From a virus, in IMG/VR virus record IMGVR_UViG_3300023178_000292, positions 1 through 22,410 of that record: DNA of 22,410 bases. One strand, given 5' to 3'. The translations under genes were made by a program, and so were the position numbers. Positions 4,480 to 8,276 of this stretch are shown piece by piece (within the stretch, counting starts at the first letter, position 1; each line of letters opens with the position of its first letter). Under the pieces are notes generated by a model that saw nothing but the letters and a program-made list of their open reading frames with translations, did no database searches and had not been told where the DNA came from.

Positions 4480-4508
4480 ATTATAGGGTTAGATCTTTGT
4501 TTTGTCAA
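4480..4508 (-). promoter_or_regulatory. Leftward consensus sigma-70 promoter for terminase operon
   Basis: On the minus strand TTGACA (4508-4503) is followed after exactly 17 bases by TATAAT (4485-4480), a full match to both boxes at optimal spacing. The start point would lie at about 4473, one base before the terS ATG. It should be a strong promoter for host RNA polymerase and drives the leftward packaging/head genes. Confidence 0.82.
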
Positions 4509-4543: not shown

Positions 4544-4572
4544 TTGACAGATCTGTGTTACGTATGTATACT
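4544..4572 (+). promoter_or_regulatory. Rightward sigma-70 promoter (TTGACA-17-TATACT)
   Basis: TTGACA at 4544-4549 and TATACT at 4567-4572 are separated by 17 bases, so only one base differs from the full consensus. The start point should be about 4579. The first palindrome-containing repeat (4573-4597) begins immediately after the -10 box, so a protein bound there would block initiation. About 115 bases downstream of the start lies an intrinsic terminator. Confidence 0.8.
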
Positions 4573-4597
4573 ATGTAACATATGTAACCTAGTTAAC
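4573..4597 (+). repeat. Operator-like repeat, copy 1
   Basis: ATGTAACATATGTAACC followed by TAGTTA is nearly identical to the segment at 8252-8276. Both copies start 0-1 bases after a -10 box. The core GTAACATATGTAAC (4575-4588) is an imperfect palindrome here and a perfect one in copy 2. Further short matches (AAGTATA, AAGTTA, TAGTTTACATA) continue in the same order for about 60 bases in both copies. The whole promoter module therefore appears duplicated. Confidence 0.65.
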
Positions 4598-4722
4598 GAT
4601 AAACAAATAAAAAGTATAAAAAATATAAGTTAAGTAGTTTACATAGGTAAACAGAGAGGGCATATTTTACTTAGGTACAATATTGTGTACGAGAGGGGAC
4701 CACTATAGGTCTCCTTTTTTTT
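4579..4722 (+). ncRNA. Candidate short terminated transcript
   Basis: A near-consensus promoter at 4544-4572 and an intrinsic terminator at 4695-4722 define a transcript of about 144 nt. It contains no reading frame of note. It includes the inverted repeat GTTTAC/GTAAAC (4637-4652), the palindrome ACAATATTGT (4677-4686) and the terminator hairpin. It could be a small regulatory RNA, or a leader at which readthrough is controlled. Its existence is inferred from signals only. Confidence 0.45.
4695..4722 (+). terminator. Intrinsic terminator
   Basis: GGGGACC (4695-4701) pairs with GGTCTCC (4708-4714) over 7 bp including one G-U pair, with the 6-base loop ACTATA, and is followed directly by eight T residues (4715-4722). 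This is a textbook rho-independent terminator for rightward transcription. Confidence 0.82.
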
Positions 4723-4790: not shown

Positions 4791-4818
4791 CTACCCCCCG
4801 TGGCCTCCTGCCCGCCCC
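4791..4818. other. C-rich island with G-quadruplex potential on minus strand
   Basis: In otherwise AT-rich DNA a short stretch carries runs of six C (4794-4799), three C (4811-4813) and four C (4815-4818). The minus strand therefore has three G-runs plus two GG pairs. It could form a quadruplex, or mark a packaging or end site next to terS. Function is unknown. Confidence 0.35.
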
Positions 4819-4920: not shown

Positions 4921-5037
4921 CTATTTCACAGCGTCAAATTATTGACAGTCTGCTAGACCAATTAAAAAGAGTTTAAAATATTGTATAAACGTACACTATT
5001 TTCAATCTTTCCAATAAGTTAACAATCAATCCCCACC

Positions 5038-5078
5038 TATTCCCAATCTTCAAGTATTCCCAATATTTTACAATATTG
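5038..5078. repeat. TATTCCCAAT repeats and adjoining palindrome
   Basis: TATTCCCAAT occurs at 5038-5047 and 5055-5064, a 17-base period. The second copy runs into an inverted repeat CAATATT (5061-5067) / AATATTG (5072-5078). The arrangement in AT-rich DNA is compatible with protein-binding iterons of an origin or control region. No function can be assigned. Confidence 0.4.
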
Positions 5079-5199
5079 ACCCATCATTAGACGCGCGTAT
5101 TTGCTCGCTGTCAGCTTTTCTTTTTTTGTGACCTAGGCATTGGCTATTTTTAAATCGTCCCATACGCGCCCTCTGTTAGCCTATGAGCCATTTTAAAAC

Positions 5200-5215
5200 T
5201 GGCATAGTGCTTGCT
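5200..5215 (+). promoter_or_regulatory. Sigma-54 (RpoN) promoter match, upstream copy
   Basis: TGGCATAGTGCTTGCT has the sigma-54 -24 element TGGCA and -12 element TTGCT at the exact family spacing. It lacks only the CG at positions 6-7 of the consensus TGGCACG-N4-TTGCW. It lies 27 bases upstream of a perfect copy on the same strand. Confidence 0.55.
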
Positions 5216-5226
5216 TAAATCTAGGG

Positions 5227-5242
5227 TGGCACGTTTCTTGCT
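5227..5242 (+). promoter_or_regulatory. Sigma-54 (RpoN) promoter, exact consensus
   Basis: TGGCACGTTTCTTGCT is an exact match to the sigma-54 consensus TGGCACG-N4-TTGCW, with the GG and GC dinucleotides at the required spacing. It reads toward the early genes at 5733. The start point would be near 5254, leaving a roughly 480-base leader. Sigma-54 promoters need an activator ATPase bound upstream. I do not see a site I can assign to a known activator. Confidence 0.65.
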
Positions 5243-5256
5243 ATAGTGTTTCCTCC

Positions 5257-5291: not shown

Positions 5292-5552
5292 TTTTTCCTA
5301 TTGAGATCTGCCTCCGCATCATTACCATAGGGAGGGTTGAAGTTAAGCTCATCGCATCACTGGATGACTCACTGACTCCAACTAGGACTAGGGCGAAACG
5401 GTCAAAATATGAGAAGCGATAGCGGATCATTGAATGGCTCAAGTAGGTGGCGGCTAGTCTGAAATTCTGGCGGGTACATTGGCGCTAGAATGATACCTCA
5501 CGAGGATCCGCACTACAGGCCGGCTCTATCACTGCTCAGCAAATAAGACCTC

Positions 5553-5571
5553 ATGACCTATAATGGGTCAT
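5553..5571. promoter_or_regulatory. Inverted repeat enclosing a TATAAT
   Basis: ATGACC (5553-5558) and GGTCAT (5566-5571) flank TATAAT (5559-5564). The -10 box is perfect but the hexamer 17 bases upstream (TCAGCA) is a poor -35. It may be a weak or activator-dependent promoter with an operator over the -10 box, reading toward 5733. Confidence 0.3.
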
Positions 5572-5606
5572 TAATACCAATCTACTCTCATTTACTATTG
5601 CAATGA

Positions 5607-5644
5607 AAAACTGCCTATCGGCTCACGCTGATTAGGGCGGTTTT
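5607..5644 (+). other. Nested hairpin ending in a T run
   Basis: AAAACTGCC (5607-5615) pairs with GGCGGTTTT (5636-5644), one G-U pair. Inside it ATCGGC (5617-5622) pairs with GCTGAT (5627-5632). The long stem with terminal Us could act as a terminator or attenuator upstream of the 5733 gene, or as an RNA-processing site. Confidence 0.45.
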
Positions 5645-5661
5645 CCTATGCTCTAAGGTAG

Positions 5662-5707
5662 ATGATTGGAGACTATCTATTCCAACAAGTAGATAGTCAA
5701 CAATCAT
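5662..5707 (+). other. Long hairpin just upstream of the first early gene
   Basis: ATGATTG (5662-5668) pairs with CAATCAT (5701-5707) and GACTATCTA (5671-5679) with TAGATAGTC (5690-5698). They are separated by a 2x2 internal loop, giving 16 perfect base pairs in total. It ends 25 bases before the ATG at 5733 and just before the AAAAGGAA ribosome-binding site. In T7, RNase III cuts at such helices between early genes. A similar role here is inference. Confidence 0.5.
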
Positions 5708-5732
5708 TTATAACCAAAAGGAATCAAATATC

Positions 5733-6194
5733 ATGACAAATGCAATAAACTCAGCGACTCAGTTTAAGAATCGACTCACCAAAATTAGCAGCGCCACGGT
5801 CTTATCAGATCTCACGGCATGCATGGAATGGGCAGTATTCCAGCTACAAGCGCATAACAATGCGTCGGCGCTAACTGCCATTTTCAAGGTGTTAAAAGAT
5901 ATCGCCAAGCGACCCGCAGGATTAACGCAAAAGAATATGCGAGCTTATCTAGAATCATTCGGCCTAGAATGGAATAAGAAAACCGAAGCTTTCCGCATCG
6001 CAACAAAGGCTGACTATTCAGAGATGAATCCAACATTCTGGAATGACATTCCCAAGGCTGAAAAAGTAGAAAAGTCCGACGCTGAGAAGGCTGCACAATA
6101 CGTGCAAAAGCTTAACCTTTCGCGCGCTCAGTGGATTGAGATTCTGGTTGAACACCTGCCCGAGGAAGCGGAGTTAATGCTTGCCGCTGCCTAG
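5733..6194 (+). CDS. Unknown early protein, 153 aa
   Basis: I do not recognise this protein. The start ATG at 5733 has an AAAAGGAA ribosome-binding site at a good distance. The sequence is largely helical: residues 1-60 alternate small and hydrophobic residues ('CMEWAVFQLQAHNNASALTAIFKVLKDIAKR'). The middle (residues 62-95) is more basic and aromatic, and residues 110-153 form another helix pair ending in 'EEAELMLAAA'. No signal peptide or membrane segment is visible. It is the first gene after the control region, downstream of the sigma-54 matches, so it is probably made early. It is flanked by hairpins on both sides: a 16-bp stem before it and the first copy of a repeated hairpin 10 bases after its stop. 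Host-takeover function is a guess from position only. Confidence 0.7.
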   Translation: MTNAINSATQFKNRLTKISSATVLSDLTACMEWAVFQLQAHNNASALTAIFKVLKDIAKRPAGLTQKNMRAYLESFGLEWNKKTEAFRIATKADYSEMNPTFWNDIPKAEKVEKSDAEKAAQYVQKLNLSRAQWIEILVEHLPEEAELMLAAA

Positions 6195-6203
6195 CTAGAT
6201 GCT

Positions 6204-6242
6204 ACACCATCGCCCATAGCTAAAAACTGTGGGTTTTGGTGT
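6204..6242 (+). repeat. Repeated two-stem hairpin, copy 1
   Basis: ACACC (6204-6208) pairs with GGTGT (6238-6242), and inside it CCCATAG (6213-6219) pairs with CTGTGGG (6227-6233). TTTT follows the inner stem. The same element, with the same spacing and flanks (ATGCTACACC at the start, ATTTTA after), occurs at 6582-6619. Each follows a stop codon by about 10 bases, so both could be weak terminators or RNA-stabilising 3' ends. Confidence 0.6.
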
Positions 6243-6301
6243 GTCATTTTACGATGGCACTAAATCAAACCAACAATACCTACAAGGTAAGGAAAAAAAC
6301 T

Positions 6302-6571: not shown

Positions 6572-6581
6572 ACAAAATGCT

Positions 6582-6619
6582 ACACCTCTGCCCATAGGTA
6601 AAACTGTGGGCTTTGGTGT
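6582..6619 (+). repeat. Repeated two-stem hairpin, copy 2
   Basis: ACACC (6582-6586) pairs with GGTGT (6615-6619) and CCCATAG (6591-6597) with CTGTGGG (6604-6610). It shares stems, leading ATGCTACACC and trailing ATTTTA with copy 1 at 6204-6242. The loop and unpaired bases differ, so selection appears to act on the helices. Confidence 0.6.
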
Positions 6620-6632
6620 ATTATTTTAGTTT

Positions 6633-8041: not shown

Positions 8042-8225
8042 TGATCTATCAGACCGAGAGTTTCTTGATCTCCTAGAAAGAGATCTTCATGTCTATAACA
8101 ATGGCCCTTGGAGGAGGCGACACATAGAACTAACAGATAACATACGTTACCTACGTAACGGTGTGATGTATCAATCTCTAGACGATATGTTGGAGGCTGT
8201 TTTTAAACAACAAACAAGGGTTTGA
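8022..8225 (+). CDS. Unknown small acidic protein, 67 aa
   Basis: Not recognised. I prefer the GTG at 8022, which has GGAG (8011-8014) seven bases upstream. The in-frame ATG at 8016 has that GGAG only one base away. The protein reads 'VEEDITDDLSDREFLDLLERDLHVYNNGPWRRRHIELTDNIRYLRNGVMYQSLDDMLEAVFKQQ', two acidic helices around a basic centre. The stop codon (8223-8225) overlaps the -35 box of the next promoter, so the early gene group ends here. Confidence 0.6.
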   Translation: MEEDITDDLSDREFLDLLERDLHVYNNGPWRRRHIELTDNIRYLRNGVMYQSLDDMLEAVFKQQTRV

Positions 8226-8251: not shown

Positions 8252-8276
8252 ATGTAACATATGTTACCTAGTTAGC
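8252..8276 (+). repeat. Operator-like repeat, copy 2
   Basis: The core GTAACATATGTTAC (8254-8267) is a perfect 14-base palindrome. With its flanks it is nearly identical to 4573-4597, and sits at the same place relative to a -10 box. This points to one regulator acting on both promoters. Confidence 0.65.

Follow-up and report, generated by a model that had tools for sequence, protein, structure and literature searches.

A sigma-54 promoter normally stays silent as long as no host activator has spent ATP on it, which makes the reliance of a virus on such promoters unexpected. Why, then, are two elements resembling them present in front of the early genes of a phage? The window, that is the whole stretch of DNA analysed here, is a 22.4 kb virus record and represents part of a marine HMO-2011-type podovirus. 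Its structural genes run leftward and its replication genes rightward, as is typical of that group, and its PolA is 49% identical to that of Pelagibacter phage HTVC103P. The first-pass annotation had reported an exact TGGCACG-N4-TTGCW at 5227-5242 and a second element 27 bases upstream on the same strand. Both statements were borne out: the former is the sole exact match within the window, and the latter, at 5200-5215, starts 27 bp before it. Both elements lie on the plus strand and face gene 5733, so they do read toward the early genes. The surrounding region, which had been described as 1.2 kb of gene-free DNA, extends from the start of TerS (about 4474, minus strand) to the ORF at 5733. About 1.26 kb are indeed devoid of any credible ORF, but the region is not featureless, as it carries sigma-70 promoters, hairpins and a structured RNA:

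4480-4508, minus strand: near-perfect sigma-70 promoter facing terminase, TTGACA-N17-TATAAT, present in 17 of 17 relatives examined
4544-4572, plus strand: near-perfect sigma-70 promoter directed at the early genes, TTGACA-N17-TATACT, present in the same 17 of 17 relatives
4691-4722, plus strand: terminator-like hairpin about 140 nt past the sigma-70 start, also found in the relative L003
4962-5170, no strand assigned: conserved upstream DNA containing an inverted repeat, CAATATT-N4-AATATTG (5061-5078)
5200-5215, plus strand: putative sigma-54 site 1, TGGCATAGTGCTTGCT, with both boxes and the same spacing as site 2
5227-5242, plus strand: putative sigma-54 site 2, TGGCACGTTTCTTGCT, an exact match to TGGCACG-N4-TTGCT
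5252-5256, plus strand: start predicted for site 2 from sigma-54 geometry, about 12 bases past the -12 GC
5336-5574, plus strand: conserved structured leader RNA with covarying helices and homologues in relatives
5607-5644, plus strand: terminator-like hairpin behind the leader RNA; in L003 a C-G pair is replaced by a compensatory G-C
5659-5710, plus strand: second conserved hairpin, preceding the first rightward gene
5733-6194, plus strand: first rightward gene, 153 aa, function unknown

The number of exact matches expected per window had been put at about 0.005, which is correct for 22.4 kb. When the motif is relaxed to TGGCAY-N5-TTGCW, 0.075 matches are expected by chance in the same length and two are observed. 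A chance origin of the window sites was rejected on the basis of this excess, of the enrichment of one spacing and of the control contrast for triple sites (see below).

Relatives were searched for the same element, as the first-pass annotation had proposed. The closest relative covering the region (L003) is 87% identical to the window at 4962-5170 and 93% identical at 5336-5740, and between these two blocks identity amounts to only 46% (69/150). Within this diverged segment L003 keeps all 11 defining bases of site 2 in exact spacing, while the 5-base spacer keeps a single base; the chance of such complete preservation at local identity is about 0.0002. The core of site 1 is present as well, in inverted orientation. 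A relative with 72% TerL identity (L015) possesses four such sites, and one of them, a perfect TGGCAYG-N4-TTGCT (TGGCATGATTATTGCT), faces the early genes upstream of the leader RNA of that phage. Altogether, TGGCAY-N5-TTGC was found 18 times, in nine phages, in about 78 regions upstream of TerL taken from the window and its terminase relatives, as against 0-1 occurrences for each of nine other spacings in the same regions. All sites in these nine sequences are located about 700-1450 bp from the TerL start, and conservation at a homologous place is thus seen for a subgroup only. Remaining motif matches in whole records belong to the portal coding sequence. Site orientation varies between close relatives. 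Loss of the elements in close relatives that retain gene 5733 had been named as a finding that would speak against the proposal. The phage records L031, L085 and L089 possess both the 5733 homologue and the leader RNA without any sigma-54 site; L003 keeps site 2.

About six phage lineages (L003, L031/L086, L085, L088/L089, L015 and L087) have homologues of the leader RNA, located in front of a rightward gene. Its core consists of CTRTCACTGC, a hairpin and GCAAATAAGAC. With helix arms chosen by eye, 39 of 41 positions of the 5' helix pair within lineages, compared with 68% when arms are swapped between lineages; for the 3' helix, arms likewise chosen by eye, the values are 36 of 39 and 35%. Folding energy is not unusual, and it is the covarying helices that argue for a structured molecule. 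Rfam families gave no match to the leader RNA at gathering threshold and nothing credible up to E=10, and scanning the whole window for Rfam families and for tRNA/tmRNA genes produced no match either. We regard the leader RNA as a candidate new family of structured RNAs. The idea that it forms one system with sigma-54 clusters was rejected, since the RNA model matches none of 125 cluster or genome-contig loci. In some lineages sigma-70-like elements are found at the start of the RNA in place of sigma-54 sites, suggesting that the type of promoter is exchangeable.

The back-to-back sigma-70 promoter pair beside TerS is also found in those close relatives that have no sigma-54 sites. As all 17 close relatives examined thus have near-perfect sigma-70 promoters in both directions, sigma-54 is not needed for rightward transcription to start. 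The proposal that early transcription as a whole is tied to sigma-54 is supported only in part: the sites do face the early genes, but so does a conserved sigma-70 promoter, site 1 is inverted in L003 and no phage-borne activator was detected in the records searched. On the other side, the terminator-like hairpin that follows the sigma-70 promoter in the window and in L003 would make a second promoter further down useful; antitermination is an alternative.

Do the two sites belong to a wider group? Scans of a viral collection listed at least 120 stretches with two tandem sites and at least 120 with three; these totals are lower bounds, and the loci were sampled non-randomly and are not fully independent. 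A control scan for two tandem sites with one extra base per spacer yielded 45 stretches, 40 of which are situated in long open frames. Coding repeats, considered as the source of the real two-site matches, explain only 28 of the 120 listed and were rejected in this role. For three tandem sites, shifted spacing gave four stretches. The same triple pattern has 15 matches in about 85,000 prokaryote genomes, seven of which proved by inspection to be non-coding, non-repeat clusters (L276, L279, L282, L283, L286, L288 and L290); phage- or mobile-element-type genes lie near at least three of these seven (L276, L279 and L288). After removal of redundancy and coding matches, the fetched loci comprise 176 clusters of 2-10 sites, and single records hold up to 26 sites in total. 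Clusters are mostly located in divergent intergenic regions (43 divergent versus 2 convergent). The window sites thus represent a small member of a widespread and apparently unreported class of phage control regions, which contain two to about ten tightly clustered sigma-54 sites. No report of such clusters in phages was found in the open-licence literature, and their novelty is accordingly provisional.

Some of these loci deserve separate mention. Six related phages (L116, L128, L133, L144, L163 and L171) carry nine-site arrays in alternating orientation, whose sites start at distances of 22 and 25 bp from each other. In L283, a Chitinophagales contig of 383 kb, eight sites are packed within 240 bp at 341-580. 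In a Methylococcaceae bin (L288, 5267-5485), a cluster of six sites is flanked by a D5-type primase gene on one side and by a pheT-like gene on the other; sigma-54 arrays may occur on integrated islands as well.

Several properties of the motif point to the protein that is likely to recognise it. N5 is the single enriched spacing. Where the scan left positions free, Y prevails before TGG and R after the Y, and a T-rich stretch precedes the second box. Sites with one mismatch are far commoner within clusters than in shuffled sequences; their mismatches affect T1, C4 (to T), A5 and T12 and hardly ever GG (2-3) or TG (13-14). The sigma-54 core is formed by GG and TGC (PMC3844500). Each of the seven bacterial genomes that contain non-coding triple clusters encodes RpoN, against four of 14 control genomes, in a small test composed mostly of metagenome bins. 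The single spacing, the preferences at free positions, the preservation of the GG and TG cores and the occurrence of the motif in unrelated phages and of its triple clusters in RpoN-encoding bacterial genomes all argue for sigma-54. The identification put forward in the first-pass annotation is strongly supported by the enrichment of the exact spacing, by conservation in diverged surroundings, by the pattern of tolerated bases and by recurrence in many phages. Judging from sequence, both window elements are very probably real binding elements for host sigma-54, and we hold their recognition by this factor to be highly likely.

Further, we examined how the sites are oriented and packed. Homology to portal, TerL, primase and PolA served to tell early from late arms; 289 sites face the early/replication arm and 119 the late arm. 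Out of 91 clusters, 72 are mostly early-facing, 15 mostly late-facing and 4 tied; 11 point only at late genes. Distances between sites in direct orientation peak at 25-29 bp (the 27 bp of the window fall inside this range), those of convergent sites at 18-22 bp and those of divergent sites at 25 bp. Sites 25-29 bp apart are too close for two holoenzymes to be bound side by side.

Neither a sigma-54 activator domain nor a sigma-54 DNA-binding domain was found in the phage records searched, many of which are fragments, and a phage-encoded sigma-54 or activator was rejected as a candidate for the array phages searched. In line with the suggestion to look for activator sites, which typically lie 70-150 bp upstream of a sigma-54 promoter, NtrC, NorR, NifA, DctD-like and PspF-like motifs were counted; they display no clear enrichment near clusters. 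Counts of GCAC-N7-GTGC (10 near clusters) and of IHF-like sites are raised there, which plausibly reflects non-coding, AT-rich DNA. Sigma-54 enhancers have no common consensus (PMC3844500). The conserved DNA at 4962-5170 contains no known activator motif and is possibly an activator site.

How might the sites be used? In the explanation that we favour, the two window elements would be recognition sites for the host sigma-54 (RpoN) RNA polymerase, and the cluster would capture scarce sigma-54 holoenzyme at the control region. Such a role of extra sites near a sigma-54 promoter, in speeding up the search or raising the local holoenzyme concentration, has been proposed (PMC3844500). At least part of their function would be that of rightward promoters in tandem, dependent on an activator, which would transcribe the leader RNA as well as the first rightward genes alongside the strong conserved sigma-70 promoter; a host activator ATPase would be needed. 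We lean slightly toward this combination of capture and partial promoter use. The orientation bias toward early genes favours promoters, and promoter function of at least one rightward site is, by a narrow measure, probable.

The clusters might instead act as decoys that titrate host sigma-54 polymerase and so starve flagellar, pilus, nitrogen and stress genes, with the phage transcribed by sigma-70 and the sites not necessarily being promoters. This would suit near-consensus sites in compact and often alternating arrays, flips of orientation between relatives, the failure to find an activator gene or known enhancer motif, and the presence of strong sigma-70 promoters nearby. It is nevertheless unlikely, since a pure decoy would not be expected to favour early genes so strongly, a pair of sites like that of the window would make a weak sponge until the genome has been replicated, and packing at 25-29 bp restricts the number of holoenzymes that can be bound. 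Closed sigma-54 complexes that do not initiate could also repress sigma-70 transcription in their vicinity, or set its timing, until they are cleared by a host activator. There is precedent in E. coli, where sigma-54 polymerase represses sigma-70 promoters at some genes (PMC4551910), and the window sites do lie downstream of the rightward sigma-70 promoter. In the E. coli cases, however, sigma-54 site and sigma-70 promoter usually overlap, whereas near-consensus sigma-70 promoters found near phage clusters are mostly placed tens to hundreds of bases beyond the array, and we consider a roadblock of this kind improbable.

The remaining alternatives dispense with sigma-54. Mixed orientations and tight packing resemble operator arrays, and another DNA-binding protein, of phage or host, might share the bipartite motif. 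Such a protein would have to be common to unrelated phages of different hosts, tolerated bases, free positions and the single spacing all fit sigma-54, and the phage records searched yielded no sigma-54 DNA-binding domain; this explanation has little probability. Finally, the window sites might be fortuitous, with rightward transcription starting from sigma-70 elements, either an extended -10 (TGCTATAGT, 5240-5248), which overlaps site 2, or a weak pair at 5301-5328, which stops 7 bases short of the leader RNA helix. In L031 and L085, -10-like elements occur at the corresponding place. The extended -10 promoter was rejected because L003 has lost TATAGT and possesses TGCTGTGTC in place of a TGnTATAAT-like element while retaining both sigma-54 boxes. 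As relatives moreover show clusters at one spacing only, a fortuitous origin is extremely unlikely.

With enhancer-dependent -24/-12 sigma-54 (RpoN) promoters the phage elements share both boxes, exact spacing, the GG and TGC core and location upstream of genes. They differ in forming clusters of several near-consensus sites, 18-29 bp apart and in mixed orientations, without a recognised activator site. Secondary or non-promoter sigma-54 sites of Salmonella, E. coli and Vibrio, for which a role as search aid or in local holoenzyme enrichment was proposed, are largely scattered and often intragenic (PMC3844500), while the phage sites are clustered in control regions. A link between phages and sigma-54 is also implied by genes annotated as sigma-54 factors or regulators in Pectobacterium phage Q19 (PMC7693777) and phi1422 (PMC3391216). 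In these cases the link lies in predicted proteins of the phage, for one of which the HHpred E-value is 0.67, whereas the link in the window consists of DNA sites for a host factor. HMO-2011-type marine podoviruses (HMO-2011, HTVC103P and CRP phages) resemble the window in divergent early and structural arms and in related PolA, portal and terminase, but neither a sigma-54 cluster nor a detectable leader RNA is present in any of the 15 phage genomes tested, which comprise 14 isolates whose hosts are named and one uncultured phage. The two sites in MW202701 are isolated and lie antisense within annotated genes. A laboratory phage model is consequently missing.

Given such clusters in many phages, a whole class of viruses would read, exploit or disable the host pathway that governs flagella, pili and nutrition. 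Clusters may also mark RpoN-bearing hosts of uncultured phages. A bolder view, possible though rather doubtful, is that arrays in many uncultured phages form a dedicated device that seizes host sigma-54 RNA polymerase, starving the motility, nitrogen and stress regulon while feeding the divergent control region of the phage.

Other repeated or conserved elements were noted in the window. TGGCCTCCTGCC at 4801-4812 is conserved in the same gap of about 30 relatives, even amid diverged surroundings, and is possibly a packaging or replication signal. Palindrome-like GTAACATATGTWAC is repeated at 4573-4597, just past the sigma-70 promoter that reads rightward, and at 8138-8159 and 8252-8276, ahead of gene 8349; a phage regulator likely uses these elements as operators. 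Two successive small early genes are followed by intergenic repeats that are nearly identical and contain a hairpin (6199-6251 and 6577-6628). The segment 10674-10874 encodes a 66-aa protein that consists essentially of a LuxR/GerE-type DNA-binding domain alone.
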